Positions 6,040 to 26,916 of a stretch of DNA of 64,000 nt are shown piece after piece. The stretch's first letter is position 1. The number at the start of each line of letters is the position of its first letter. Below the pieces are notes generated by a model. The model had not been told where the DNA came from, searched no databases, and was given only the letters and a program-made list of their open reading frames with translations. Source of the stretch: Pseudomonas fluorescens (GTDB lineage Bacteria > Pseudomonadota > Gammaproteobacteria > Pseudomonadales > Pseudomonadaceae). The stretch is from NCBI RefSeq assembly GCF_900215245.1, contig NZ_LT907842.1, positions 4,712,001 through 4,776,000 of the forward strand, given 5' to 3'. The translations under genes were made by a program, and so were the position numbers.

Positions 6040-7059
6040 TTACCATGTGGATGGGTCTTCGAGACTGGCTCTTTGGAGGTCGTCTTTCCAAACCTCGTTG
6101 GCTAATCGGTAGATGTCGGCAAAAAAGCTTCGGGGGTCAACTATTTCTGTTTCGTCCCAGGCCATCGTTGAATATTTATCTGGGTCATCCTCAAAAAAAC
6201 AATGAAAATCAAAGTTTTCTGTATTTAATGCGGCGTCCAGGTTTTCCATTAATTTGTATCGGTGGCGATAGGAAAGCTTGTTGTATGGATCCAGGCAATA
6301 TTTGAGAATTAGATTTTCTCTATCTTTTTTGTCGTTGGGATCATAGGCGTGAAGCTCTGCTCCCTTGGTTTCCTCTCTGTCGTAAATGTCAAAAACTCCT
6401 ACGAAATAATACAAGCTCGCATCAAAAGGTATGTGCTCGGAAAATGGGTGAAATAGCATTTTTATTCCTTGATCGGAAATAGAGTAAAAGCGTTCACGTC
6501 GCTGTTCCCGCGAGGTTTGAGGTGCAGTTAGTTGTCGCTCATTTACTTGTGCCTTTCCGATTGGATTTTCGAGGCCGGTTACTGGCTTACATCCATCGCC
6601 GCCTGGGCAGGTGTTTAAGCCCAGAGGATCCACCCAACCTGTTGGGTTCGGCACGTACTGGTACGCGTTAATCCCACCCGCCAGCTTCACCGGGTCAGGC
6701 GTCAGGTAGCGACCAATATCCGGATTGTAGTACCGGTGGCGGTTGTAGTGCAGCCCGCTTTCCGGGTCGAAGTATTGGCCTTGGAAGCGCAGCGGGTTGT
6801 CGATTTTGCTGACGTCGAGGCGGGCAATCTCTCCGTAGGCGCGGTAGTGCGCCGACCAGACGATTTCACCGTCTGGGTCTGTAAGCTCCTGCGGTGTTCC
6901 GAGGTGGTCGAGTTGGTAGTGGAAGGGCTGGGTGTCTTTAGGGCCAAAGCCTTCCAGCAGTGCCAAAGGCCTAAAACTGTCCGGTTCGTAGAGGTAACTG
7001 CGATGACGATCTGCGTGATGTTCGGCAATTGCGAAGACCCGTGGTGAGAGAGCGAGCAT
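6040..7059 (-). pseudogene. Orphan Rhs C-terminal cassette 3 (truncated core + acidic unknown tip)
   Basis: Homology to the full-length Rhs starts at about 7029 (IAEHHADRH) and runs to the hallmark junction NPTGWVDPLGL. A unique 191-residue tip follows (coding about 6615-6040). Everything upstream of the junction in the core is gone, and the apparent ATG at 7057-7059 lies inside a hairpin, so no genuine start is evident. The tip is strongly acidic and aromatic (for example FHCFFEDDPDKYS) and resembles an immunity protein more than a nuclease. No separate immunity gene follows it. It is probably a displaced tip kept as a recombination reservoir, or a tip fused to its immunity domain. Function unassigned. 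Confidence 0.7.
6650..7029 (-). repeat. Rhs core direct repeat, copy 1
   Basis: About 380 bp nearly identical to 8065-8460 and 9631-10010. It encodes the last part of the Rhs core up to DPLGL. The three direct copies differ by only scattered bases and lie just upstream (in reading direction) of three unrelated tips, so homologous recombination could swap tips. Confidence 0.9.
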
Positions 7060-7079
7060 GTTCGCTCTCTCACCACGGG
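7038..7079. repeat. 18-bp perfect stem hairpin at the break of Rhs cassette 3
   Basis: The two 18-base arms (7038-7055 and 7062-7079) are perfect reverse complements, CCCGTGGTGAGAGAGCGA on the left, separated by a 6-base loop. It lies exactly where Rhs core homology of cassette 3 ends and before the immunity gene of cassette 2. It may be a terminator for that immunity gene or a REP-like element marking the rearrangement end-point. Confidence 0.75.
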
Positions 7080-7119
7080 GATTGGGCTGTAACGTCGAGT
7101 GGTGGCGTTCTTATGCTGC

Positions 7120-7485
7120 CTATTGGTCTTTGAAACTGACCATGTATTGCTTTAAACGGCTCAAAAGGATCTGCATAAAGATTCGTTGATCAGCTATAGG
7201 GTCGCTGAAGTAAGTTGCCATTTTTTTAAATACTGCGTTGAAGTCATCATTAATAGATAAGTAGTGTTCGATCGACTCGATGAACCATTCTTGTTCTGAT
7301 TTTGTATAAGACAGAAATTCTGGCTTGGTCAGTTCGTCAAAAAGCTCAATAAGTTCTTCTTTGTTGTTTACATTCTTTGAGGAGATGAAATCTTCTCTTT
7401 CCGGATTATCCGTATTTTCAATGTCGTATGTGAACAGTAATCCACGGATTATTGCCATGCTTGGATTTTTTTTCATGTTCATCAC
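7120..7485 (-). CDS. Putative Rhs immunity protein (cassette 2)
   Basis: 121 residues, AT-rich and helical-looking, with no signal peptide or recognised domain. Its start overlaps the stop of the cassette-2 toxin tip by 4 bases (7482-7485, ATGA), the translational coupling typical of polymorphic toxin/immunity pairs. An alternative start is the internal methionine at position 2 or 4. The immunity role is inferred from position, size and overlap. Confidence 0.65.
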   Translation of the reverse strand: MMNMKKNPSMAIIRGLLFTYDIENTDNPEREDFISSKNVNNKEELIELFDELTKPEFLSYTKSEQEWFIESIEHYLSINDDFNAVFKKMATYFSDPIADQRIFMQILLSRLKQYMVSFKDQ

Positions 7486-8786
7486 TCGGTATAGGCAGTT
7501 TTTGGTTTTCCATCTTTATCTAGTATTACTCGTGCTTTGCGTTGTTGACTATATTGCAGGTCGCCACTGGAATACCCTTCACCAATCACTCTTCCCATGT
7601 CCATCGGCTCCAATGATGCTGCATGACCGTTTCTTCTAAATATTAGCTGTGCTCGATATATCGAATTCAACTGATCCCTATGGCTCAGGTAATGCGTTGC
7701 TGCAGGTGGGTATTTAGGTTCTCCTTTTTTCTTACCTGATGTGTAAATCTCAACAATTCCTGTTGTTGGGTTTTTTGCTGATCTGACTCTTTCGAGCTGA
7801 GATTCAAATGTTGTCTGGGCGCCGTGTTTTTCTAAAAAATGTGCGCCTGGTGTCTCCTCTTCGAGCTTGTCCAAGCGTCTGTAGGTATTTGCTTCTGCGA
7901 GCTCATCAATTTTTGCCAGTCGTTCCGCACGTGTCAGTTGAGGTAACGCGGGCTCTCCGTGATGTACACCTTTAGTTGAGTTTTGAACGTTAGCGCTTGA
8001 CTTGCAACCATCTCCACTAGGGCATGAGTTTAAGCCTAGCGGATCAATCCACCCTGTAGGGCTCGGCACGTACTGGTACGCGTTAATCCCACCCGCCAGC
8101 TTCACCGGGTCAGGCGTCAGATAGCGACCAATATCCGGATTGTAGTAGCGATGGCGGTTGTAGTGCAGCCCGCTTTCCGCATCGAAGTATTGGCCTTGGA
8201 AGCGCAGCGGGTTGTCGATTTTGCTGACGTCGAGGCGGGCAATCTCACCATAGGCGCGGTAGTGCGCCGACCAGACGATTTCACCGTCTGGGTCTGTAAG
8301 CTCCTGCGGTGTTCCGAGGTGGTCGAGTTGGTAGTGGAAGGGCTGGGTGTCTTTAGGGCCAAAGCCTTCCAGCAGTGCCAAAGGCCTAAAACTGTCCGGT
8401 TCGTAGAGGTAACTGCGATGGCGATCCGCGTGATGCTCGGCAATCAGCTTGTCGCCTTGCCAAAAAAACTCTGTCGTTATGCCTCCAACGGTTTTGCTGA
8501 TCCGTCGCCCAAACGGGTCATAGCGATAGCTGGCTGTTTTTCCGTTCGGCTGGGTGATGCCTATCAACCGGTGCTGGCAGTCGTAGCGGTATTCAGTAAC
8601 GAGTTGATGGCCTTTGCCACGTCGCTGACGGATCAGGTTGCCAAAGGCGTCATAGTCGTAATGATGATCGCCCTGGATCATCAGGCGGTTGCCGGCAACG
8701 ATGTCCGGGCCGTGGCCGAAGCGTTCCTGTGCGTCTCGTGGGTGATCGGCCCGAGTCAGACGGGCGAGGGGATCGTAGTAGTGGTA
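7482..8786 (-). pseudogene. Orphan Rhs C-terminal cassette 2 (core fragment + unidentified toxin tip)
   Basis: The frame is open from about 8786 with Rhs core sequence (HYYDPLARLTRADH), then DPLGL, then a unique 182-residue tip (coding about 8030-7482). Compared with the full Rhs, the core fragment lacks 12 residues in frame near 8705 and has no upstream start; the first internal ATG is at 8681. The tip contains AHFLEKHG, ATHYLSHRDQL and a C-terminal VILDKDGKPKTAY. This layout loosely resembles BECR-fold RNase toxins, but I cannot assign the family. It is followed by a 4-base overlap with a likely immunity gene. Confidence 0.75.
8065..8786 (-). repeat. Rhs core direct repeat, copy 2
   Basis: About 720 bp nearly identical to 9631-10390 of the complete rhs gene, with a 36-base in-frame deletion near 8705. 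It is the longest of the displaced core pieces and ends at REP-like DNA at about 8797. Confidence 0.9.
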
Positions 8787-8796
8787 CCTCGTCCGC

Positions 8797-8842
8797 TCCT
8801 ATTGGGGCCGCTTCGCAGCTCAACGCAAGCTCGCTAACTACA
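8797..8842. repeat. REP-like sequence at the break of Rhs cassette 2
   Basis: The stretch CCTATTGGGGCCGCTTCGCA followed by ACGCAAGCTCGC resembles a common Pseudomonas REP arm. It lies exactly where Rhs core similarity of cassette 2 stops and 27 bases before the stop of the upstream immunity gene. REP elements are frequent end-points of rearrangement. Confidence 0.5.
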
Positions 8843-8868
8843 AGGTTTTCTGCTGCCTTATTTGTTTT

Positions 8869-9174
8869 TTATTTAGAACTTTGTTTTTTCAGGGTTGAGG
8901 CCACATGCTTCAACCACGTTCGAGCGTCCTTCCATTCGTTAAGATAATAGTAGTAGCATCCGATGTCGGCGAATAAGTAGTCTTGAAGCTCTTGCTCCGT
9001 CTTGTTGGTCATTATTAATCTGTCTAACTCTGACTGTACTTCGGATAGTACGTCCGCAGAAATGTCGGAGATGAAAAAGTCAATTACATCATCTGCGCTC
9101 TTGTGGTCGTACGCCCAATCTTGATTAAAATAGCCTGCAAGGAATTGCTGTAGCTCAGGATAGTCTTGGTTCAT
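8869..9174 (-). CDS. CdiI-type immunity protein for the RNase A-like Rhs tip
   Basis: 101 residues, acidic. It opens with YPELQQFLAGYFNQDW and contains DVIDFF, the pattern of the CdiI_2-like immunity family that neutralises contact-dependent toxins. The ATG overlaps the rhs stop by 4 bases (9171-9174), ensuring coupled translation. It should bind and block the Rhs tip in the cytoplasm of the producer and its kin. The family assignment is from remembered pattern, not a search. Confidence 0.8.
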   Translation of the reverse strand: MNQDYPELQQFLAGYFNQDWAYDHKSADDVIDFFISDISADVLSEVQSELDRLIMTNKTEQELQDYLFADIGCYYYYLNEWKDARTWLKHVASTLKKQSSK

Positions 9175-12100
9175 GGGTTTGGAAATCCAGTGTGAATTCG
9201 GTAGCCATTATGCATGTTGTTATCTCTGCGAATGACAAGGTGAATTTCCGTTCCGGGAACGGAAATTGTTGTGTTCTTTTTAAAACTGGTGCCTATAGGG
9301 TGTTTGACTTTTTGAATAATGACAATTTGGTTGTTTTGCCCTTCGAGAAAGTTGCTGATCTTGGTTTTGTTGTCATCTAATACGTTTGATATCGCTAACT
9401 CTGCCGAAGTGCGATCATGAAAAGTCGAAGCTGCTGGGATGTTTGGTTGTTGTTGCAAACGATCCAGCAATTGCCTATCAGTTCTACCGATGTGTCTTTG
9501 CATCAAATGCCCTCCCGCCCGTTCATGTGCAGCTAACCCCCCACCTGGAACTATTTTGCTATACGGGCCTTCAGGACAATTCGTGCTCTTACAACTCAGT
9601 CCCAGGGGATCCACCCATCCCGTCGGATTGGGCACGTACTGGTACGCGTTAATCCCACCCGCCAGCTTCACCGGGTCAGGCGTCAGGTAACGACCAATAT
9701 CCGGATTGTAGTAGCGATGGCGGTTGTAGTGCAGCGCGCTTTCCGGGTCGAAGTATTGGCCTTGGAAGCGTAGCGGGTTGTCGATTTTGCTGACGTCGAG
9801 GCGGGCAATCTCGCCGTAGGCGCGGTAGTGCGCCGACCAGACGATTTCACCGTCTGGGTCTGTAAGCTCCTGCGGTGTTCCGAGGTGGTCGAGTTGGTAG
9901 TGGAAGGGCTGGGTGTCTTTTGGACCAAAGCCTTCCAGCAGTGCCAGCGGGCGGAAGCTGTCCGGTTCGTAGAGGTAACTGCGATGGCGATCCGCGTGAT
10001 GCTCGGCAACCAGCTTGTCGCCTTGCCAAAAAAACTCGGTGGTGATGTCGTCGACGGTTTTGCTGATCCGTCGCCCAAACGGGTCGTAGCGATAGCTGGC
10101 TGTTTGCCCATTGGGCTGGGTGATGCCTATCAACCGGTGCTGGCAGTCGTAGCGGTATTCAGTAACGAGTTGATGGCCTTTGCCACGTCGCTGACGGATC
10201 AGGTTGCCAAAGGCGTCATAGTCGTAATGATGATCGCCCTGGATCATCAGGCGGTTGCCGGCAACGATGTCCGGGCCAGGTCGATCCTGCATCAGCAGGT
10301 TGCCCGCCGGGTCGTGGCCGAAGCGTTCTTGCACGTCTTGCGAGTGATCGGCCCGAGTCAGACGGGCGAGGGGGTCGTAGTGGTAGTCGTGTTGGCCTTT
10401 ACGGGTATCGAGCAGGCGGGTGAGGTTGCCGGTGTTGTCGTAGTCGTATTGGCGCTGGTAGAGAGTGTGTTGCTGTTGGCTGACGGCGTGGGCGTGCAGG
10501 CGGTTTTGTTCGTCGTAGTGGTAGTGGCTGAGGAGCTGGCCTTGTTGGCGCTGGTGTTCGCGACCGGCTTTGAACAGGTGAGAAGTGAGTGTTTCACCAT
10601 TCAGTTCGACGCTGGCAAGGTGGCCGCCTTTGTCGTGGTTGAAGGTGAGGCGGTTGTTGTCCGGCAGACGGAGGTTTTGCAGCTGGCCGCAGGCGTCGTA
10701 GCCATAGCGCAAGGTGCCCCAGCCCTGGTGTTCGGCGGTGAGGCGGTTTTGTGGGTCGTATTCGTAGGCCAGCGCCCAGTGGCCGTCGTCAACGCTGAGG
10801 AGGTTGCCCTGGCGGTCGTAGGCATAATCAACAAGGTTGCCGTCGGGCAGGGTTTTTCGTACGAGGCGGCCGGCGTGGTCTCGCTCGTAGCGGGTGATTA
10901 GCTGACTGCCGTCATCGCCATATTCGGTCTTTTCCGCCAGGTTACCGTTGAGGTCGTAAACGTAGGCGGTGCGCTGGCCATCAAAACCGATTTCCTGCTG
11001 GATCAGGCCATTGGGGTGGTAAGCGAGCTGGTAGGTTTCGCCGACTTCGTTTTCGATGGCGGTCAGCAGCAACCGTACGTTGTCGTAGCGGTAGTTGACC
11101 TGAGTGCCATCGGCATTGATGCGGCGGCTGATCAGGTGCAGGCCGTCGGCGTATTCGTAGCGAGTGACGTGGCCCCGTTCATCGCGTTCGGCGGTGATTT
11201 TTCCGTAGGGGTTGTAGCTGTATTCCCGCGTAGCTCCATCGTGCCGGGTCAGTTTCAGCAGACGCCCGGCGGCGTCCCATTGATACTGGGTTAGCGCTCC
11301 ATGCTCTTCCTCGCGTGTAATCTGCCTACCAAGAGCGTCATAGCGATAGCGTTTGATAGCGCCATTCGGCAGTTGCTCCTCAAGCAACTGACCGCGTTCA
11401 TTCCAGACCAGCCGGTGACAGCTGTTATCCGGATACCAAATCCCGCTCAGTTGCCCGTATTTGTCGTAGCTGCAGTCCGTGACATTCCCGTCGGGATCAG
11501 TCTTGCGAATGACGTCGCCCTGGTCGTTGCGCTCATACTTCCAGACCGCCTCACCACGCCGTACAACCCGTACGAACCCGTTATCGTGCTCGTAGGAAGT
11601 CGGTTCATCCTCCCCAGGAAACAACGCCACCAACCGTCCGGCGTCGTCGTACTGATACGCCGTCACCGCGCCCAACGGGTCTTGCTCGACCGTCAGCCGG
11701 CCTTTGTCGTCATAGGACTTGAAGTGCTCGGCGCCGTCGGGATCAATACGCTGCACCAGCCGCGCGCGCTGGTCATGCACGTAAACTTCGCGACTGCCGT
11801 CAGCGTTGTGAACCGTGACCCGGCCGTTGTCATCCCACGCATAGCGCGTGTCCATCTGCGAAAAGCTGGCCCAGTGCCGGACACAGCGTGCCGCTTTGCC
11901 AGCCCGTTCCCACGCCCAGAAGAAGCTCGCCCCGCCGGCGAGCTGCCGCTCCAGAATGACGTGCTGATCGTCGTACCGATAAACCTCGCTTTCACCGACG
12001 GCGTTGGTCGCTGACACCAGTCGGCCAAGGTCATCGTAGGCGTAGGCAACGACGGTCTGTTCAGTCACCCATTCAAAGGGTTCAGGCCCTTTGGCGCGAT

Positions 12101-13871
12101 GAACCTGGTAGTCCACGGCCGCGATGCGACCAAACGCATAGCGCAAAAACAGCGAGCGGCCCGCACCGTTATCCAGTCGTTCGATTCGCCCCAAACGATC
12201 TCGAACAACCCGCAGGCGGTTGTCATACGCATCGCTGATGGCTGTGAGTAAACCGTCGCGGAAATGGTAGAAACGTGACGCCTGAGCCAGCACCAGTTCA
12301 TCGGGCAAAGCGCCCAAGTAAATCGCGGCTTCGGCCAGGCTGTTGGTAATCACCGGTCGGGTGGCAGAAGGCAAGGGCAGGGCAGTCGAGCGGTTCTCAT
12401 GATCCGTCCACACCACCGAATCGCCATCCACCACCAACCGCTGGGCCAGCGCATGACTCCAGCCAAACCCCAGCCCGCAATCCACGTCCACCGCACTGGT
12501 GCGATACAACCGTGTCCACTCAAACGGCAATATCCCGTCCAGCACACCGTCGGTGAGGGTCAGCAGTTCCTCGCCGGTCACCATCGACACCGGGCAACCG
12601 TTGGTGGCCGTCTTGTCCGCCGGGGCCGCCGCATCGCCGTTCGGGTTCTTACCCGCAGCCGGCACATCGTCGACAGGTTCCTGGCGCACCAATGTCGTCT
12701 GCTGGGTCTTCTTACGAACCGCCGGTACCGGGTTGGAAACCAACTGATCCCCAGCCTTCAACGACACAAGCGGCACGGTCTTGATCTGTGTGGCAGGGCC
12801 ACCGAGCATCAAGGGCTTAACCGCTGCCAGATGCGGCTCCAATATCGGCCCCACCAACTGACCCGCCAGCGTCTGCAACCAGTTGCGCACCCGCCTTGAT
12901 TTGATAGGGCCCAATACCTGAGCACCCAGCCGAAGTTGCACGCCCATACCCCGGGTCGCCCAGATCAGAAACAAGTTGATCAATACTTCGCCGGTGACCT
13001 CTCCCAGCAGCTCATACATGTCTGGCGGTGGAAGCATGCGTATCCAGCCGACCATGGCTGACAGATAGATGAACAACAGCGGTTCGTCGCTGAGTACCAG
13101 CAGACCCTGCGCAATGGCGTCCTTGCCCAGTTTCAGCAGATCGTCAAGTTCGGTTTGGGAGATGTATTGCAGCAACTTTTGGCTGTTGGTTCTGATATCC
13201 GCCAGCAGGTCATACAGTTGCGTAAAGTTGTCCCACAGGTTGTAGAACGCTTGGCTGATCCCACTGGCAAATGCCACGCCTTGCATCGCGCTACGCTCAA
13301 TAGGCGTGGCGTTTGCAAAGTCGGTCCATTGGGCGCTTGAGGTCTTAGTCCACTCATCGCGCAGGCGAACTTCCAACTCCGCAATCACCGACTGATAAGA
13401 CGCATACAACGCCTTGACGTGATCTTTGGAAACGTTGGGGTAAAACGTAATTTGGTATCGCTGATCACGTGTGCATTCTCTGACTTCAAGAATGCCGCTG
13501 GGGCCGATGGTGTGATGGATGGGCGGCCCTGTCGGGCTGCCATCTACGGCAATGGCTTGCAGCATCACCGGCGTATTGCCGATCGGCACGAACTGCGTGC
13601 TTTCGAACATATGCACCAGGGTCAAGGAACCCTGGGCCTTGCACATCGCAACTGTGGGGCTTGGCGCTTTGGAAGAGACCGGCGCTACCAGTGCGACGTC
13701 TTCTCCAACCTTGAACACCTGCTCCACTTCCAGCGCCGAACCACTCCAGAAGCTCTCGGCCCATTGGTCAAAAGTGTTCAGGCACTCTCGAAAATCACGG
13801 AAGACGCTTTCAACATCCGGTGCTTTGGCATCCATGGGGGCCAGGACAAACCTGGCAATGACCGGAATCAT
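9171..13871 (-). CDS. Full-length Rhs polymorphic toxin with RNase A-like C-terminal domain
   Basis: 1566 residues. A unique N-terminal region (about 1-420) has a hydrophobic helix pair near 256-310 and no PAAR motif that I can see. Rhs/YD repeats run from about 424 (CPVSMVTGEE) through many YxYDxxGR units to the DPLGL junction near 1425. The tip (1426-1566) has GGHLMQRHIG and ends GYRIHTGFP, matching the bacterial RNase A-like toxin family of CdiA tips, so it probably cleaves RNA in target cells. A cognate immunity gene follows with overlap. No vgrG, PAAR or chaperone gene adjoins it, so its delivery (type VI secretion is usual for Rhs) must be supplied elsewhere. A weak ribosome-binding site leaves the exact start open. 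Confidence 0.92.
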   Translation of the reverse strand: MIPVIARFVLAPMDAKAPDVESVFRDFRECLNTFDQWAESFWSGSALEVEQVFKVGEDVALVAPVSSKAPSPTVAMCKAQGSLTLVHMFESTQFVPIGNTPVMLQAIAVDGSPTGPPIHHTIGPSGILEVRECTRDQRYQITFYPNVSKDHVKALYASYQSVIAELEVRLRDEWTKTSSAQWTDFANATPIERSAMQGVAFASGISQAFYNLWDNFTQLYDLLADIRTNSQKLLQYISQTELDDLLKLGKDAIAQGLLVLSDEPLLFIYLSAMVGWIRMLPPPDMYELLGEVTGEVLINLFLIWATRGMGVQLRLGAQVLGPIKSRRVRNWLQTLAGQLVGPILEPHLAAVKPLMLGGPATQIKTVPLVSLKAGDQLVSNPVPAVRKKTQQTTLVRQEPVDDVPAAGKNPNGDAAAPADKTATNGCPVSMVTGEELLTLTDGVLDGILPFEWTRLYRTSAVDVDCGLGFGWSHALAQRLVVDGDSVVWTDHENRSTALPLPSATRPVITNSLAEAAIYLGALPDELVLAQASRFYHFRDGLLTAISDAYDNRLRVVRDRLGRIERLDNGAGRSLFLRYAFGRIAAVDYQVHRAKGPEPFEWVTEQTVVAYAYDDLGRLVSATNAVGESEVYRYDDQHVILERQLAGGASFFWAWERAGKAARCVRHWASFSQMDTRYAWDDNGRVTVHNADGSREVYVHDQRARLVQRIDPDGAEHFKSYDDKGRLTVEQDPLGAVTAYQYDDAGRLVALFPGEDEPTSYEHDNGFVRVVRRGEAVWKYERNDQGDVIRKTDPDGNVTDCSYDKYGQLSGIWYPDNSCHRLVWNERGQLLEEQLPNGAIKRYRYDALGRQITREEEHGALTQYQWDAAGRLLKLTRHDGATREYSYNPYGKITAERDERGHVTRYEYADGLHLISRRINADGTQVNYRYDNVRLLLTAIENEVGETYQLAYHPNGLIQQEIGFDGQRTAYVYDLNGNLAEKTEYGDDGSQLITRYERDHAGRLVRKTLPDGNLVDYAYDRQGNLLSVDDGHWALAYEYDPQNRLTAEHQGWGTLRYGYDACGQLQNLRLPDNNRLTFNHDKGGHLASVELNGETLTSHLFKAGREHQRQQGQLLSHYHYDEQNRLHAHAVSQQQHTLYQRQYDYDNTGNLTRLLDTRKGQHDYHYDPLARLTRADHSQDVQERFGHDPAGNLLMQDRPGPDIVAGNRLMIQGDHHYDYDAFGNLIRQRRGKGHQLVTEYRYDCQHRLIGITQPNGQTASYRYDPFGRRISKTVDDITTEFFWQGDKLVAEHHADRHRSYLYEPDSFRPLALLEGFGPKDTQPFHYQLDHLGTPQELTDPDGEIVWSAHYRAYGEIARLDVSKIDNPLRFQGQYFDPESALHYNRHRYYNPDIGRYLTPDPVKLAGGINAYQYVPNPTGWVDPLGLSCKSTNCPEGPYSKIVPGGGLAAHERAGGHLMQRHIGRTDRQLLDRLQQQPNIPAASTFHDRTSAELAISNVLDDNKTKISNFLEGQNNQIVIIQKVKHPIGTSFKKNTTISVPGTEIHLVIRRDNNMHNGYRIHTGFPNP

Positions 13872-20060: not shown

Positions 20061-20552
20061 TTAAAGCGCCATCACCATCTCATGCCACGCCATCCCGCCA
20101 TGTTCCGACGGCGAAGGCTGCACATAGGTGTAGCCCATGCGCGTGTACAACGGCACATGCTGCTCCTTGCACATCAAATGAATCGTCTGCTTGCCCATTG
20201 CGTGCATGCGCTGCACAAACTCAGTCATCAGCAGCCTGGAATAACCCTTGCCCTGCTGCGCCGGGTCAACCACCACTGACATAATCACCACATTCGGCGC
20301 CTCGGCCGCATGCCCCACCAACTCCTTGAACGCCTCATCCGACATCACCACCTGATGCGCGCAGCCACCGTTGATAAAACCCACCACCGCGCCATCCGCC
20401 TCCAGAATCAAAAAGCCCTCGGGGTACTGCGCAATGCGCGTGGCGATCTTTTCCAGCGTCGCGGCTTCATCGCCTTCGTAAGCGCTGATTTCGATGTTAA
20501 AGCAACGGCCGGCATCGTCGGGGCGGGCGTTGCGGAAGGTGAGGGCGGGCAT
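20061..20552 (-). CDS. GNAT-family N-acetyltransferase
   Basis: 163 residues from the ATG at 20552 (MPALTFRNARPDD). Motif A is VVDPAQQGKGYSRLLMTEFVQ and motif B is PLYTRMGYTYVQPSPSEHGG. The C-terminal pattern resembles arylalkylamine-type GNATs. First gene of a possible GNAT-GNAT-AraC transcript. Substrate not predictable from sequence alone. Confidence 0.88.
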   Translation of the reverse strand: MPALTFRNARPDDAGRCFNIEISAYEGDEAATLEKIATRIAQYPEGFLILEADGAVVGFINGGCAHQVVMSDEAFKELVGHAAEAPNVVIMSVVVDPAQQGKGYSRLLMTEFVQRMHAMGKQTIHLMCKEQHVPLYTRMGYTYVQPSPSEHGGMAWHEMVMAL

Positions 20553-20649
20553 GGGCGTTTCCTGGGGCGTTAAACGAAAGGCCACATCATAGCGGCACGC
20601 CCAAACACTCGCCATCGCCGCACTGGCAGCGTCGAACAAAGCTCAAACG

Positions 20650-20690
20650 GTGGGAGCTGTAGAGCCCCGGCGAGGCTGCGAAGGCGGCGG
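20650..20690. repeat. Single REP element
   Basis: GTGGGAGCTGTAGAGCCCCG followed by GCGAGGCTGCGA is one arm of the second REP type seen again as a full REPIN at 33379-33488. Confidence 0.75.
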
Positions 20691-20735
20691 TACAGGCACT
20701 CTCAAAGCCGGATCAGTAGCCCTGTTTCAGTTCAC

Positions 20736-20765
20736 CAAAAACCAGAAAACCCGCCAAAGCGGGTT
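20736..20765 (-). terminator. Rho-independent terminator of the DUF3077 gene
   Basis: AAACCCGC-CAAA-GCGGGTTT, an 8-bp stem, is followed on the minus strand by a T-rich run (TTTTCTGGTTTTT). It lies 21 bases beyond the DUF3077 stop. Confidence 0.75.
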
Positions 20766-20785
20766 TCCACACAGCTCACATCACA

Positions 20786-21079
20786 TCAACTCACAGCAGC
20801 CACATCAAACCCGCGCCGCTCCATCACCGTAAACACGTCCGCCACATCCTGCACCATGATTCGAGCGGTATTGGCGACCGTATTGATGTCGTGCTCGGCA
20901 TAGTCGGAGACATTGGAACAGGCCATCAGGTGCAGGTAGGCGAGGGCGGCGTTGAGACGTTCGCTGGCGCAAGCGTGAAGCTCGCTGAGCGGGGCGTCGC
21001 TGTCGATGAGGAGGACAGGGTATTCGGTTGCGGTTTGGGACATGGGGGTGAAGCGGCGGGGCGGGTGTTGAATTTTCAA
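20786..21079 (-). CDS. DUF3077 family protein
   Basis: 97 residues if it starts at the TTG at 21079, which has AGGGAT eight bases upstream. The first ATG is at 21043 (85 residues) but has no visible Shine-Dalgarno. The body LSELHACASERLNAALAYL and a later VQDVADVF helix match the small helical DUF3077 proteins that are multi-copy in fluorescent pseudomonads. Function unknown. A terminator follows at 20736-20765. Confidence 0.75.
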   Translation of the reverse strand: MKIQHPPRRFTPMSQTATEYPVLLIDSDAPLSELHACASERLNAALAYLHLMACSNVSDYAEHDINTVANTARIMVQDVADVFTVMERRGFDVAAVS

Positions 21080-21983
21080 GGTAGAAATCCCTAAGAAAGA
21101 AAAAGTATTGAACTGCCGTTGAACAAGGCATCTCCGGAAACAGATCTGGTGGGCTCAACGGTTTTGGGTAATTCTTTTTTAGGGCTGCGAATCCCATCGC
21201 CGATCAAGCTGGCGACGTAGCGGACTATAGATGGCTGATTTTGGCGAGGCAACGGGGGCTGTTGTGGTTGTAGGCTGGTTTGCGGAAGCATTGACTATTC
21301 TGGGTAAAGGTTAAATCAGAGGTTTAGTGCTCTATACCGCGTGTTTAAAGGTGATGCGTGCATGAGGACTGATCAGCATCGTGGATGCGTCTTTCGATTT
21401 TGTAAGACATATCTGACTGGGTTTTAGGAGAGTTTGGGTGGCTCCAAAAACCGACTCATCCATTTGCGTTCGACCTAGTCAGTTTTTACATCGGTTTTTA
21501 CCAGCAGGTTTGCGTACATGACAGGCATAAAGTGGCCGATAACTGCCTCGCGTACAGAGCTATAGATAGCCGAGAGGCTTCGAGCGTGAGTGGCAGAAAG
21601 CAGTCTACAGAACACAATCAACTGGTTACGCAAAATATAAATCGATTCAACTTGCACTCGTTGGTGTTAATTCGGTAGGTTAAGCACTCATTGTGGCATA
21701 CAGTTACCAAATAATTATTATGATCAATGCATACTACTCAAAAATTAAGAACGTTCTGGCTTAGGCGTGAAGGTTTTTCAAATACGAAAATTGGCCATAA
21801 AAATTAATGGAGGAAGATTTAAAATGACTGTATACAACTTTAGTGCTAGCGCATTAAAGAATGCAATTTACTTCGCTTAATGCCAGAATTCGAACTGTGC
21901 AGAATGCTCTTCGAACTATAATTTGTCGCCTGTCTCAACAGGTGGGTCAGTGGAACATACATGGGTAAATCAAGGACAGAGCA
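21080..21983. other. AT-rich intergenic region at the left edge of the island
   Basis: About 900 bases in which composition shifts from GC-rich to AT-rich. Apart from the short frame at 21824-21880 I see no convincing gene. Minus-strand frames at 21091-21291 and 21475-21657 lack good ribosome sites and family resemblance. A small stem CCTGT-CTCA-ACAGG lies near 21929. No integrase or att repeat was recognised. Confidence 0.5.
21824..21880 (+). CDS. Very short ORF with strong ribosome-binding site (possible leader peptide)
   Basis: 18 codons (MTVYNFSASALKNAIYFA) preceded by GGAGGAAG at 21809-21816, an almost ideal Shine-Dalgarno eight bases from the ATG. It lies 103 bases before the start of the metallophosphoesterase-NACHT gene. 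It could be a leader peptide, the truncated 5' end of a lost gene, or chance. The strength of the ribosome site argues for translation. Confidence 0.35.
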   Translation: MTVYNFSASALKNAIYFA

Positions 21984-24900
21984 ATGAGAATTTTACACAT
22001 CTCAGATCTACATGTTACTAATAGTGCTGATCACGCAAGGATAATTAACGCGCTATGTGAGGATGTAATCAAGGCGAATAGCAATAAGAAAATAGATGCA
22101 ATATTATGCACTGGTGACATTGCTAACAGAGGGAATACGTCAAAGAGCGCTATTGGCGCTCAAGAAGTAATAATAAGGAGGATACTTCGCTCCTCAAACT
22201 CTACGGCGGTATTTTTATCCTGTCCGGGAAATCATGATGTAAGTCTCAAGGATAGAGAGGATTTGTACGAGTCAATATTTACCAGCATAAACACCCCTGA
22301 AGAGGCAAATAAGCTAGTCGAAAATCTTATTGGCAAAGGCGACACGCCACTTTTGGGGCACTTAAGCGGCTATGTAGAGCTTTTAAGAAGAATTGATTCT
22401 TCAGCATATGCGGGGAATATGCTATTCACAACAAAAAAGCTAGAAATTGACTCTGTGCAAGTAGGTGTGATCTCTTTAAATAGTACATGGCGAACCGCTG
22501 GTGGAGGGAGCAAAGATAGAAATAGTCTATATGTTGGCGAGCGGCAAATTGAACTTTCACTTGCGGAGATAGATGGTTGTGATATTAAGATTGCAATGAT
22601 GCATCACACTTTAGATTGGCTGGCTCCGGAAGAAAAGAATAGAATTCAACGAGTGCTGTCAACTAACTTTGATCTTCTTTTGTGCGGGCACAATCATAGC
22701 AATAATGCGTCACAAACAATATCAACATTGGGGAGTTTATTGATTAGCAACACAGGATGTATCTACGAAAGCAGAGATCACTATAACGGCTATTCCATTA
22801 TAGATATTAATAGCAAGGAAAGCGTATTAAAGATAGAGGCGCGGGAGTATTATAGTCAGAGAGATGAGTTTGATATCTCCCCAAGATTCGCGAAGGATGG
22901 AGTGTATGAGTTTAGTTTGTCGAAAAATAACGGCGGAGTCAAAACATCTATTTCAAGTACCGCAATAAATGCAGCGTTAGAAAAGGCTAATTCAAAGCTC
23001 CTATCTTTTTCGGCGTCCGATATTGCACCAAAACACTTATCATCTATCTTTGTTGAGCCGCCGCTGGCAAAGAAAAGTGAGAAAAGTCTTGCTGCTAGTG
23101 ATGATCTTGATACAAAAGATACTGATGAGGTCGTAAGTCTATACAGCTTGTCGCAAGAAAAAATAGACATTATTTTTATCGGGAAAAGAGAGTCTGGAAA
23201 ATCAACACTGCTAAATCATATTGCAGTCAATAAATTTATGGAGTTTCATGGGAGTGCAAGGGTTGGCCTGTTGATTGATATCTCAATACTTTATAAGTTG
23301 ACAGTGGCAGCCATCATTACTCAAGCAATAGAGTTTTTAGGTAACGAAATCCTTAAAAGGGATCTAGTCACTCTATTAGAGGGCGGTGAAGCATTGGTTA
23401 TCTTCGATAGCTTTGATCTGCATAGTTCTGCTCATAGAAAATTAATTGAGGAGTTTAGAGAGAAATACCCAGCGCCTCGATATATACTGGCTACAAACGA
23501 AGAGTTGCAGGATGATCTTAGTCTTGAAAAGCTTCCGTCTTTAAAAAACAACCCGGCCGTTGTTTATATACACTCATTCAAGATAAGGCACACGAAGGAG
23601 TTAGTAAGAAAATGGTTCGGTGAGCATGACCAAAACTCTGAAGAACGGTTCGCGCTTGTAAAAAAGTTATTATCCAAGTTGAATGTACCACAAACCCCTT
23701 TCTTAGTATCTATATTGCTATGGGTAATAGAGCAGCAGCCCACAGCCAAACTAATAAATCAAGCGTCCGCAATAGAAGCACTAATTTTTGGTCTTCTGGA
23801 AAAATTTACAGAGTCAAAATCGCGATCTAACTATGATTCCAATATTCAGTCCCATTTTCTATCAGAACTATCTACCGCCATGGATGAGGCAAGCGCAGAA
23901 TGGGTGAATTCGAATGAATTTGAGGTTTTTGTATCTACTTACTTTAATAAGAGGGGGCTCACCGTCCCTTCAAGGGGCTTCACAGAGGAGCTTCTTAGGA
24001 AAGGCTTACTATATGAGAGTAATCAAAAAATATCATTTAAATTCGATTGCTTTAGGGCTTTTTTCCTAGCAAACAAACTTGCTGATAGTGTAGAGGCGCT
24101 GGCAAAGGTTTTAACCCCACTTTCAATCTCAAGCTATACAACCGAGCTAGACCTACTTACAGGCCTTCACCGGGATCGGAAAGATATTCTAATTTCAGCT
24201 AGGGACTGTTGTCGAAAACTACTCGCCGAGTCCGAGTTTGAAGTTGACATATCTTTGTTTGAAAGTCACGGTAGTGAACAAGGAATATTTAATCAGTCGG
24301 AAAGTCTAACGAAAATGGAGGACGATTTTTTAAATACTCCCATTGATGACAACCATAGAGCTAGATTCATTGAAGAAGCAGAAGTCCCTTCAAAGGCGTC
24401 TATTGATCATGACCATGCTAGACAAAGGCACCCTAGTACCCCACTATCAAGCCAAATGCATTTCATAGGTGCGTTAAAAGCATACTCTAATATATTAAGG
24501 AATAGTGAGCTAATTGATGATGTCGAGCTAAAAAAGCAGTGCCTCAATGATGTTCTTACTATGTGGTCAAAAATTATTGTTTCCACAACAAAGTATTTTC
24601 ACGAAATAAATCCAGACGACTTCCCAGACGACCTTCCGCCTGAGCTTGAGTTTTTGTCTCCAGAACAATTTAAAAGCTTTATAAGATTGATGATCCCTCA
24701 ACTGATCTCATCTTTAATGGCGGAGTCCTTGGCTACACCCAAGCTTGAAAATTTTATTCTGGCTGAAACGAACAATCCGAGTCAGTGTATACGTTTCCTA
24801 TCCACAATGCTCACGATAGAGAATTTAAACAGGGCAAGCATACAAGCGATTTGTAAGTTAATAAAGGAGGCGAGTGCGAATAATATTGTTACGCAGGCAG

Positions 24901-25097
24901 TATTTATTCGACTTCTAACGTTATATTATTTTGAAGCGCCTTCTAACTCATTAGAGTCAATAAGGGACTGCATTGGTGATGCCTTTAATGCTCTTCGAGG
25001 CTCATCAAGTAGTGAACGATCAGTATATAAAGGGCAATTTTTACGGCATATCGATGAGAAACGTGCAAAAACTCTGGGGGATCTAGAAAAGGACTAA
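21984..25097 (+). CDS. Metallophosphoesterase-NACHT/STAND-like NTPase (candidate anti-phage protein)
   Basis: 1037 residues, strongly AT-rich and unlike the flanking chromosome. Residues 1-270 form a complete calcineurin-like phosphoesterase: D8-L-H10, GD45, GNHD (82-85), HH 207-208 and GHNH (235-238). Residues about 385-560 are a P-loop NTPase: Walker A GKRESGKST (400-408), Walker B ALVIFDSFD (470-478), sensor-like ILATNEE (501-507) and a NACHT-like KIRHTKELVRKWFG. A winged-helix segment with SFKFDCFRAFFLANKL follows, then a long helical C-terminus of about 350 residues without recognised repeats. Effector-switch-sensor order is that of bacterial STAND immune proteins; the phosphoesterase would be the effector. 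Single gene with its own ribosome site (AAGGAC). Defence role is inference. Confidence 0.75.
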   Translation: MRILHISDLHVTNSADHARIINALCEDVIKANSNKKIDAILCTGDIANRGNTSKSAIGAQEVIIRRILRSSNSTAVFLSCPGNHDVSLKDREDLYESIFTSINTPEEANKLVENLIGKGDTPLLGHLSGYVELLRRIDSSAYAGNMLFTTKKLEIDSVQVGVISLNSTWRTAGGGSKDRNSLYVGERQIELSLAEIDGCDIKIAMMHHTLDWLAPEEKNRIQRVLSTNFDLLLCGHNHSNNASQTISTLGSLLISNTGCIYESRDHYNGYSIIDINSKESVLKIEAREYYSQRDEFDISPRFAKDGVYEFSLSKNNGGVKTSISSTAINAALEKANSKLLSFSASDIAPKHLSSIFVEPPLAKKSEKSLAASDDLDTKDTDEVVSLYSLSQEKIDIIFIGKRESGKSTLLNHIAVNKFMEFHGSARVGLLIDISILYKLTVAAIITQAIEFLGNEILKRDLVTLLEGGEALVIFDSFDLHSSAHRKLIEEFREKYPAPRYILATNEELQDDLSLEKLPSLKNNPAVVYIHSFKIRHTKELVRKWFGEHDQNSEERFALVKKLLSKLNVPQTPFLVSILLWVIEQQPTAKLINQASAIEALIFGLLEKFTESKSRSNYDSNIQSHFLSELSTAMDEASAEWVNSNEFEVFVSTYFNKRGLTVPSRGFTEELLRKGLLYESNQKISFKFDCFRAFFLANKLADSVEALAKVLTPLSISSYTTELDLLTGLHRDRKDILISARDCCRKLLAESEFEVDISLFESHGSEQGIFNQSESLTKMEDDFLNTPIDDNHRARFIEEAEVPSKASIDHDHARQRHPSTPLSSQMHFIGALKAYSNILRNSELIDDVELKKQCLNDVLTMWSKIIVSTTKYFHEINPDDFPDDLPPELEFLSPEQFKSFIRLMIPQLISSLMAESLATPKLENFILAETNNPSQCIRFLSTMLTIENLNRASIQAICKLIKEASANNIVTQAVFIRLLTLYYFEAPSNSLESIRDCIGDAFNALRGSSSSERSVYKGQFLRHIDEKRAKTLGDLEKD

Positions 25098-25129
25098 GTT
25101 GAGAGTGGAAGTCAAAGTTTTTTCTCGAC

Positions 25130-25158
25130 ACAGGTCACGATCGTTAGTCGTGACCTGT
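25130..25158. terminator. Hairpin downstream of the NACHT-like gene
   Basis: ACAGGTCACGA-7 bases-TCGTGACCTGT is an 11-bp perfect stem 32 bases after the stop. It is not followed by a clear T-run on the plus strand, but on the minus strand it is followed by GAGAAAAAAC. It may be a factor-dependent terminator or part of a mobile end. Confidence 0.45.
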
Positions 25159-25184
25159 AGGTGGCCTACAACTGAGAGCGAAAA

Positions 25185-25229
25185 AACGGGGTCAGTCCAC
25201 AGTTAAAATAATGGTGGTCTGGCCCCGTT
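25185..25229. repeat. GGGGTCAG-type palindromic element, copy 1
   Basis: AACGGGGTCAGTCCAC pairs with GTGGTCTGGCCCCGTT across an AT-rich loop. Related sequences occur at 26033-26070 and, as a half-site, at 32359-32376. It resembles dispersed proteobacterial palindromes with a GTGGTCTGACCCC core that may be mobilised by RAYT-type transposases (inference). Confidence 0.6.
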
Positions 25230-25233
25230 CTGC

Positions 25234-25299
25234 GTCTAACACATGGTTTAAGTCGCTCGCTGGGACGGCGTTCCGCCGCCCCTTAACCAAACGTTATGT
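25234..25299 (+). other. Integron attC-like recombination site
   Basis: 66 bases with the attC layout. The 1L box is GTCTAAC (RYYYAAC), the 2L-like box GGTTTAAG, a central stem GGGaCGGCG/CGCCGCCC, the 2R-like box CTTAACC, and the 1R box GTTATGT. Paired 2L/2R boxes with one extrahelical base are typical of attC sites folded for integrase binding. The 1R box departs from GTTRRRY at one base. The TPR gene starts 15 bases after it, as in a gene cassette. No integron integrase is in the window. Confidence 0.6.
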
Positions 25300-25313
25300 G
25301 AATTAGGGGATAT

Positions 25314-25874
25314 ATGCGTTTGTCTTTGGTTCTTTTTCTTTCTCTGCTTCCAAGCCTTTCGTCAGCAGATATTGGACTTAACAATATGATCGAAAGCTAC
25401 GAGTCACAAAAAAGTGGTGATTATCTAAATGATCAAGAGTTATCTTTTTTAAGTCACGAAATTGGCATGCGTCTTTTGGCGAGTGAAAAATACGATTCCG
25501 CTATCACTTACTTTAAAACCGCATTAGAGATCGACCAGAATATTGACAAAAATGACCCCGGCCTCGGGGGGCGCTGGACATATTTAGGCCAGGCATACAC
25601 GCTTAATGGTCAGATAAATAATGGTATTGAATCGCTCCAGCGCGCCCTTCAGATAGATGAGCAGCACTACCCTGAGGGGCACCTGAATATTGGAATTGCA
25701 CACGGAAATTTGGGTTGGGCTTTAATTCGATCTCGAAACTATCAGAGCGCAAATGATCATTTAAAAATAGCTTGCGCAATCTTCTTGGAAGAGTTTGGCG
25801 AAAACCACCCCCAAACTCTAGACTGCCACAAGAAGCTGAACGTTACCCTCAAGTACCTGCAGAAGAACCGATAA
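25314..25874 (+). CDS. Secreted tetratricopeptide-repeat protein
   Basis: 186 residues. An N-terminal signal peptide (LSLVLFLSLLPSLSSA) is followed by at least three TPR-like helical hairpins from about residue 40: YDSAITYFKTALEID, INNGIESLQRALQID and YQSANDHLKIACAIF. AGGGGA sits just before the start. The gene fills a 0.7-kb segment with an attC-like site in front and a matching CACATAAC behind, so it looks like an integron cassette. TPR proteins act as interaction scaffolds; the partner is unknown. AT-rich like the NACHT gene. Confidence 0.75.
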   Translation: MRLSLVLFLSLLPSLSSADIGLNNMIESYESQKSGDYLNDQELSFLSHEIGMRLLASEKYDSAITYFKTALEIDQNIDKNDPGLGGRWTYLGQAYTLNGQINNGIESLQRALQIDEQHYPEGHLNIGIAHGNLGWALIRSRNYQSANDHLKIACAIFLEEFGENHPQTLDCHKKLNVTLKYLQKNR

Positions 25875-25994
25875 TAGGGATGCGCGACTATAAATAAGCA
25901 CCAATCGCCACAAGATTTATTGTTTTGCTTTACGGGCATTGCCAGGCCGCTTCTGGCAGGTACGGCTTCAGCCCATTTACATATGCACCAACGA

Positions 25995-26042
25995 CACATA
26001 ACAACTGATTTAAATCATTCTCTTAAATAGTAGGGGTTAGAG
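25995..26042 (+). other. Degenerate attC-like end of the TPR cassette
   Basis: CACATAAC (25995-26002) is the exact reverse complement of GTTATGTG at 25293-25300. An integron cassette requires its own trailing 1L box to complement its leading core. GATTTAA and TTAAATA could be 2L/2R, and GTTAGAG at 26036 a trailing core. The central stem is poor, so this is weaker than the upstream site. Confidence 0.4.
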
Positions 26043-26070
26043 CACATTTAAATAAAGGTGGCCTGACCCC
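26033..26070. repeat. GGGGTCAG-type palindromic element, copy 2
   Basis: GGGGTTAGAGCAC and GTGGCCTGACCCC form an imperfect palindrome around an AT-rich loop. It is the same type as 25185-25229, so the TPR segment is bracketed by two copies. Confidence 0.5.
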
Positions 26071-26084
26071 CAATATTTTTTCAA

Positions 26085-26513
26085 TCAGCGCTTCAAAGCA
26101 TCACATTGGGCACGCAGGTCCCTGTTGGAGATTGAACCGCAGCTACCGTTGTTGGTTTTCGCGTTACACAAATAGCGCTGATCACTGTCGTCGATGCTAT
26201 TGCAGCTGCCTCCGTTGGTTTCAGCATTGCAGGCATAGCGCAGGTCGCGGTCGGAGATGGAGTTGCAGCTTCCATGATTGGTCTTGGCATTGCAGTAATA
26301 ACGCTGGTCACTGTCGCTGATGCTATTGCAGCTGCTCCCATTGGTTTCCGCGTTGCAGGTGTAGCGCAGGTCGCTGTCGGAGATAGAGTTGCAGCTACCA
26401 TGGCCTTCCTTGGCTTTGCAGTAAGCGCGTTGGTCCGAATCGCCAATGCTGTCGCAGCCGGCAAAGGCGTTGCCGCTAATCAACAACAACAGCACAAGAA
26501 TCACTCTCATCAC
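26085..26513 (-). CDS. Secreted cysteine-rich tandem-repeat protein
   Basis: 142 residues. The signal peptide (MMRVILVLLLLISGNAFA) is followed by six near-perfect repeats of about 21 residues of the form CNSISDSDxRYxCNAxTNxGS, each with two cysteines. Repeats alternate between a DQR...AKTN type and a DLR...AETN type, giving a 42-residue higher-order unit. The regular paired cysteines suggest one disulphide per repeat in the periplasm or outside the cell. No lipobox is clear, although a Cys follows the cleavage region. Function unknown. The DNA repeats are equally regular, so copy number may vary by slippage. Confidence 0.8.
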   Translation of the reverse strand: MMRVILVLLLLISGNAFAGCDSIGDSDQRAYCKAKEGHGSCNSISDSDLRYTCNAETNGSSCNSISDSDQRYYCNAKTNHGSCNSISDRDLRYACNAETNGGSCNSIDDSDQRYLCNAKTNNGSCGSISNRDLRAQCDALKR

Positions 26514-26916
26514 TTTCTTCCTTGGTTTACCGGGACGCTATTCGGTATTTTTGGCCCGGCTGGCCATGCTGCACAACGGCGCGTCAAATTGCCATCACCT
26601 TAAGAAAAAGCTCACTTTTTTCCAGCCATCTTATTGCGCCTCCAGCGCCGAGCCGTCGCCCGACGCCCGAGAGTTGTCATGGCAATAAACCCTATTGAGT
26701 CTGAGTGGTGTGCAAGCTTCGTAGGCTGCTAGCAGCTACTCACTGACGTTTGCGTTTTGCCGACAGCAAACGGTTCGCCTACGGCCAAAAACAAAAAAAC
26801 CACCCACACCCCAGCCGCAAAGCCACGATATGGATGGTTCCACCCATCCGTCTCAAAACACTACATTCGGTTCACTCAAACCCCACCCACCAACTTCCCC
26901 TATCCATCCGTCGCTT
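26514..26916. other. Intergenic region, no gene seen
   Basis: About 400 bases upstream of the cysteine-repeat gene. The part after about 26780 is a C- and A-rich run of poor complexity on the plus strand. I see no plausible gene, palindrome or RNA. The cysteine-repeat promoter must lie at its left end. Confidence 0.5.

Follow-up and report, generated by a model that had tools for sequence, protein, structure and literature searches.

DS-8, a defence system described in 2026 with DefensePredictor, is a single protein made of an N-terminal metallophosphatase and a NACHT nucleoside triphosphatase (NTPase), and it protects Escherichia coli against phage, according to the available part of the paper (PMC13092281). 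Defence was abolished by mutating either of two residues of the metallophosphoesterase (MPP) or one residue of the NACHT domain, and the authors compare the MPP to human SMPDL3A and call its substrate unknown (PMC13092281, same part). An architecture of this kind is present in a 64,000-nucleotide stretch of the Pseudomonas fluorescens genome (contig NZ_LT907842.1, positions 4,712,001 to 4,776,000 of the forward strand), which is referred to here as the window. The gene in question very probably encodes a single-gene anti-phage protein of the PDC-S60/DS-8 kind, comparable to the nucleotide-binding leucine-rich repeat receptors (NLRs) of animals. Computed support comes from intact and conserved catalytic residues, a NACHT-like predicted fold, kinship with the DS-8 family, and an accessory, sometimes defence-associated setting.

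The original prediction for this DNA had taken the architecture to be an unnamed one. It is already listed as DS-8 (2026 paper), as PDC-S60 in PADLOC and as DS8_antiphage in NCBIfam. Its novelty is therefore limited, the kind being both catalogued (PDC-S60) and experimentally validated (DS-8). The proposed combination of an MPP, a P-loop NTPase and a helical C-terminus in one open reading frame (ORF) is borne out by Pfam matches and models of the intact 1037-residue protein. The parts of the gene, whose NTPase is of the STAND type (signal transduction ATPases with numerous domains), are the following:

21972-21976, + strand: AAGGA, Shine-Dalgarno-like, 7 nt 5' of the ATG, read directly in the sequence
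21984-25097, + strand: MPP-NACHT/STAND gene P0001, a single ORF with an ATG start, 1037 amino acids and no internal stops
21984-22883, + strand: residues 1-300, N-terminal metallophosphoesterase with complete di-metal centre motifs, the proposed effector
22884-23135, + strand: residues 301-384, linker with a conserved IFVEPPL at residues 355-361
23136-24263, + strand: residues 385-760, NACHT-type STAND NTPase and winged-helix region, with Walker A at 400-408, Walker B D475 and PF24406 at 643-695
24264-25094, + strand: residues 761-1037, C-terminal region, helical in the model, the proposed sensor

Comparison with defence-gene catalogues had been suggested as a check, and it gave a match over the whole length to the candidate PDC-S60, in addition to the architecture already shown to defend in DS-8. 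The PADLOC model for PDC-S60, PDLC05051, scores 320.1 bits (E 8.3e-96) and aligns residues 1-1008 of the protein to model positions 1-1002 of 1027, a match judged by profile score and span and not by PADLOC's own system thresholds. The model thus covers the protein from end to end; PDC-S60 itself is a candidate label only, and a literature search for the name gave no match. In the DS-8 family, the point of comparison is L022, the sole protein above the cut-off of the NCBIfam model NF053861 (DS8_antiphage) in 274 genomes of the class, with 1073 bits. The profile of the window family aligns collinearly to L022 over 904 columns with a probability of 99.9, and PF24406 occurs in both proteins. With an MPP whose metal ligands are complete, a NACHT NTPase and a C-terminal region collinear with L022, the window protein has a DS-8-like architecture in the superfamily sense, and shared ancestry with the DS-8 family is established computationally. 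The loss of protection upon domain mutation has been shown for DS-8 only; the window protein is likened to it by sequence and model. DS-9 also has a metallophosphatase homologous to that of DS-8, according to the available text (PMC13092281), and the window protein matches its model NF053862 weakly (37 vs 420 bits). Unlike the one fused protein of the window, however, DS-9 consists of two genes, with a separate haloacid dehalogenase (HAD) phosphatase as partner.

The N-terminal domain is a calcineurin-like phosphoesterase (Pfam Metallophos, residues 1-239, E 8.7e-16). Its motifs are D8-L-H10, G44-D45, G82-N-H84-D, H207-H208 and G235-H236-N-H238, and the di-metal centre is formed by D8, H10, D45, N83, H84, H207, H236 and H238. 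A search of 5.8 billion proteins, with 7992 candidates scored, gave at least 79 relatives, the best of which is a Pseudomonas protein with 93% identity. Conservation was read from 73 full-length rows, window protein included, after 7 of 80 had been dropped (4 short, 3 very distant). D45, N83, H84, H207, H208, H238 and the NTPase residue D475 are invariant, D8, H10 and H236 occur in 72 rows, and Walker A K406 in 69. The motifs and residue numbers given at the outset (DLH, GD, GNHD, HH, GHNH, K406, D475) were correct, and they are nearly invariant. The gene is under purifying selection. Compared with the genes of three Pseudomonas species, dN is 0.13-0.18 and dS is saturated; the single pair for which whole-gene dS could be computed (L011-L013) has a dN/dS of 0.053 at a dS of 1.43. 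In every pair of Pseudomonas genes compared, the NTPase is the slowest-changing part. Among at least 90 proteins found (7992 candidates per search), 82 of 90 carry DxH...GD...GNHD, four begin inside the MPP and four are without all or nearly all of it. No alternative effector was seen among these near relatives.

As VIA-align of the whole model returned almost nothing but MPP proteins, which fill the list, the NTPase was modelled separately as residues 350-760. The predicted fold is closest to the NACHT domains of NOD2, NLRP3 and NLRC4, and carries Walker A K406 and Walker B D475. The assignment to a NACHT/STAND-like NTPase thus held when put to structure prediction, which does not place the domain in an unrelated P-loop family. 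Weak matches to G-alpha (residues 389-480), dynamin and small GTPases centre on Walker A, and an unrelated P-loop NTPase was rejected given the fold comparison. Furthermore, nSTAND_NTPase4 (PF24406) is found at residues 643-695 with 41.1 bits against a cut-off of 27. The NACHT-type predicted fold and the order effector, NTPase, sensor are shared with bacterial NACHT (bNACHT) proteins and with the animal NLRs NLRC4, NLRP3 and NOD2 (for bNACHT: PMC12169576, available part). Unlike in animal NLRs, leucine-rich repeats are absent from the Pfam matches of the window protein. Residues 761-1037 have no Pfam match listed, and the alignment varies most in stretches of this C-terminus (751-800 and 851-900). 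None of the Avs (AVAST) models is matched: up to E 5, the PADLOC matches listed are to PDC-S60 and 'Effector' models only. One of these, PDLC00736, which we take to be a CBASS (cyclic oligonucleotide-based antiphage signalling system) effector, matches residues 2-317 only, and no CD-NTase search was made. The window protein also aligns to 9a6c_B (YYDD-YYDB), over residues 1-315 only; 9a6c_B is an integrative model and not an experimental structure alone, and its YYDB is presumably YydB of B. subtilis.

More distant proteins of the class bear on the role of the N-terminus. In L023 and L024, the match to the DS8 model starts no earlier than about position 290, and a TIR domain stands where the MPP would be. 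PF24406 is above its cut-off in L023 and scores 20.8 vs 27 bits in L024. L023 shares 27% identity with L022 over 706 columns and aligns to the window family profile at columns 357-755 with a probability of 98.4. A further PDC-S60 model, PDLC05050, matches L023, L024 and residues 316-1000 of L022. The NTPase and C-terminus are thus common to these TIR-STAND proteins and the DS-8 family, and TIR replaces the MPP. An exchangeable N-terminus on a common STAND module is what an effector would predict, and it points to the N-terminus as the effector.

By analogy with NLR and STAND proteins, the C-terminal helical region would keep the protein inactive and detect a phage product or a change caused by infection. 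The NTPase would then swap its nucleotide and oligomerise, as its fold suggests, and clustering would switch on the N-terminal di-metal phosphoesterase. The latter may cut phosphodiester bonds in a nucleotide, a cyclic nucleotide or a nucleic acid needed by the infected cell, so that growth of the phage, and probably of the cell too, would stop. At the level of a guess, the substrate has about an even chance of being a small nucleotide or cyclic nucleotide, a somewhat smaller one of being DNA or RNA, and only a slight one of being something else, for instance a lipid. The same system could be armed with an Mre11/SbcD-like nuclease directed at the DNA or RNA of phage and host, and not with a nucleotide phosphodiesterase, a version that is a real contender at rather less than even odds. 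By sequence, the family profile matches Mre11/SbcD nucleases of the PDB (3qg5, E 7.9e-7), NCBIfam SbcD gives 27.1 bits, and a PADLOC model matching the N-terminus is named 'Effector, Endonuclease'. Other bacterial NACHT proteins have DNase effectors, according to the part of the source available (PMC12169576). Phosphodiesterases and nucleases have MPP folds so similar that the data do not allow a choice between the two.

The gene stands out from its surroundings. As originally noted, it is AT-rich, with a GC content of 0.396 against about 0.6 in the surrounding window; in 1-kb windows, GC is 0.39-0.45 across 21-26 kb and about 0.6 before that and beyond 27 kb. Among 298 genomes of the genus, the full-length gene is present in two, the window genome included, and eight more have partial matches only. 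The branch occurs in Pseudomonas, Variovorax, Acinetobacter and Oxalobacteraceae. Similarity at the DNA level with the genes of three further Pseudomonas species begins 12-16 bp 5' of the ATG and ends about 30 bp before the gene end. Their flanks are unlike the window, except that one of the three shares a 112-bp stretch and short repeats with it. The insertion site was compared with a relative:

20571-26875, no strand: segment differing from relative G017, bounded by a GNAT gene (20061-20639, - strand) and by the flank shared with G017 from 26876 on; one relative only

In place of window positions of about 20571-26875, G017 carries 534 bp that contain a different small ORF. A second relative, G004, has the two flanks on separate contigs and among other neighbours, which leaves G017 as the basis of the site comparison. 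A core gene of a phage or of a plasmid was considered and rejected: there is no match in 50,697 phage records, and 9 of 72,556 plasmid records match, 2 of them with at least 80% coverage and all below 60% identity.

Of 11 homologue loci found, six were examined, and in each of the six the gene has a lower GC content than its flanks. Avs3a and Avs3b adjoin the Acinetobacter homologue, with an ORF read by eye as an integrase further away, and the Oxalobacteraceae homologue has a type VI retron reverse transcriptase (RT) with its helix-turn-helix (HTH) protein about 1.7 kb away. The flanks were scanned with PADLOC on 80 of 106 flanking ORFs (about 150 amino acids or more, uncut by an end). At 1e-10, the matches listed (25 of 41 families) comprise Avs3a, retron RT in most rows, one ThsB-type match, which was not assigned to any locus, and two helicase cross-matches. 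The two Cas3g matches come from one 691-residue ORF common to two loci, presumably RecG. Homologues confined to core positions would have told against a defence role according to the original prediction; instead they are accessory, and two of the six loci lie near known defence systems. With no matched control, these neighbours are suggestive and not a statistic.

The protein could also be a housekeeping or regulatory STAND phosphoesterase, active in nucleotide signalling or stress response and without a phage role. This is quite unlikely. It agrees with the lack of phage data for this clade and with flanking genes that, among those scanned, are either ordinary chromosomal ones or without a family match. 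It fits poorly, however, with the patchy occurrence in two of 298 genomes, the foreign base composition and the different insertion places, or with the presence of Avs3 and a retron as neighbours at two loci and the kinship with the DS-8 family.

Several points weigh against reading the gene as an anti-phage protein of the PDC-S60/DS-8 kind. Anti-phage activity of this clade is argued from likeness to DS-8, and the identity of NF053861 with the DS-8 of the paper is itself inferred from name and architecture. The window protein scores 224.9 bits with NF053861 against an equivalog cut-off of 790 and shares 22% identity with L022 over 797 columns; a DNA search of E. coli genomes for L022 found nothing. 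Given about 225 vs 790 bits, 22% identity and collinearity over 904 columns, the window protein is, as judged from sequence, a distant collinear relative of the DS-8 family and not a DS-8 equivalog. The Walker B motif of NACHT domains typically has a second acidic residue (hhhhDGhDE). Unlike in bNACHT proteins and NLRs, this second acid is not conserved: the window protein has D475-S-F-D478, and D478 is D in just 10 of the 73 rows. Together with the retention of K406 in 69 rows, this means that some relatives may bind the nucleotide without hydrolysing it. Likewise, Pfam NACHT (PF05729, residues 396-546) stays under its gathering cut-off with 13.7 vs 26.7 bits, and by sequence the family profile reaches NLRC4 at just E 0.018. 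The C-terminus is near-invariant at R839-L843, K850 and K920, which is unusual in a fast-evolving sensor. Moreover, four of the six examined loci have no neighbour attributed to a defence system at 1e-10, and no known defence gene is seen in the window flanks, where the PADLOC scan covered two neighbouring ORFs only and gave weak matches.

The integron-type DNA described downstream of the gene was upheld in part.

25234-25298, + strand: single attC-like hairpin; its membership in the system is doubtful

This one hairpin, read by eye, lies 136 bp past the stop codon. Its folding exceeds chance only weakly (z -2.07; 9 of 200 shuffled sequences do as well or better). No second copy turned up in the window when a pattern with up to 3 mismatches was searched, which is not an attC-model scan. 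With no integron integrase above the family cut-off in the genome, an active integron was rejected. The hairpin is possibly a relic and not necessarily part of the gene. Integron cassettes with defence genes exist, and the position of the hairpin would suit a joint capture of gene and attC-like site as one cassette. Such a capture is very improbable given the missing integrase, the modest advantage of the fold over shuffles, a DNA similarity to the three Pseudomonas homologues that ends just before the stop codon, and the lack of any plasmid match for the 983-base stretch 25098-26080. A tetratricopeptide repeat (TPR) protein of 186 amino acids is encoded at 25314-25874 (+), immediately behind the attC-like site, in the position that a cassette gene would have. 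At 26085-26513 (-), a 142-residue Cys-rich protein of 21-residue repeats (63-nt spacing) has a signal-peptide-like start by eye and no Pfam match at 0.001.

On the other side of the gene, a short repeat at 20636-20698, just outside the GNAT gene, has four further matches in the genome, two of them close and in opposite orientation, like repetitive extragenic palindromic (REP) elements. A 97-residue ORF at 20786-21079 (-) has no Pfam match at 0.001; its DNA has a match of 72% elsewhere in the genome and further ones in some relatives, but not at the same place in G017. Further away, at 6040-13871 (-), lies an Rhs locus. Its 1566-residue RHS protein carries an RNAse_A_bac (CdiA-CT) domain at the C-terminus, and the end of the Rhs core recurs with other tips in two shorter ORFs (of 399 and 339 amino acids, the latter read by eye). 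The locus resembles a polymorphic toxin whose tips have been displaced. In the 64-kb window, ARAGORN found no tRNA and Rfam gave no match at gathering scores. Promoter and terminator scans were at chance level (10 found vs 9.1 expected and 2 vs 3.3).

Other phosphoesterase genes were encountered on the way. A distant homologue with 24.7% identity (L042) is carried by the Sphingomonas plasmid NZ_CP155757.1, where a recombinase, a serine protease, a cytosine methyltransferase, an HNH protein, Vsr and an integrase are encoded in the same stretch. On plasmid NZ_CP139142.1 (L059:9977-13286), a separate metallophosphoesterase gene overlaps that of a 759-residue protein without a Pfam match at 0.001, with a tyrosine recombinase adjacent; the pair is possibly a split version of the MPP-STAND kind. 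In L026 (1477-3396 and 28-1404), an MPP is fused to a SIR2-like domain of the ThsA/Dsr type, beside an ATPase gene whose SMC_N match stays under the cut-off, and is a candidate for another phosphoesterase-headed defence architecture.

The findings extend the DS-8 kind to the branch in Pseudomonas, Variovorax, Acinetobacter and Oxalobacteraceae, and the alignment of the window protein with 71 relatives is usable for choosing mutants. As the substrate of DS-8 is unknown (PMC13092281, available part), a distant and independently conserved branch is useful to find common features. In bacterial relatives of NLRs, the exchange of MPP and TIR on a single STAND module clearly exemplifies effector swapping. 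Finally, a more speculative and rather unlikely idea is that of a separately evolved, phosphoesterase-headed NLR branch which senses a conserved host-derived or universal infection cue, as the near-invariant C-terminal residues would suggest, and destroys a nucleotide messenger or an essential nucleotide pool, not DNA. If true, it would be an NLR that kills by small-molecule phosphodiester hydrolysis.
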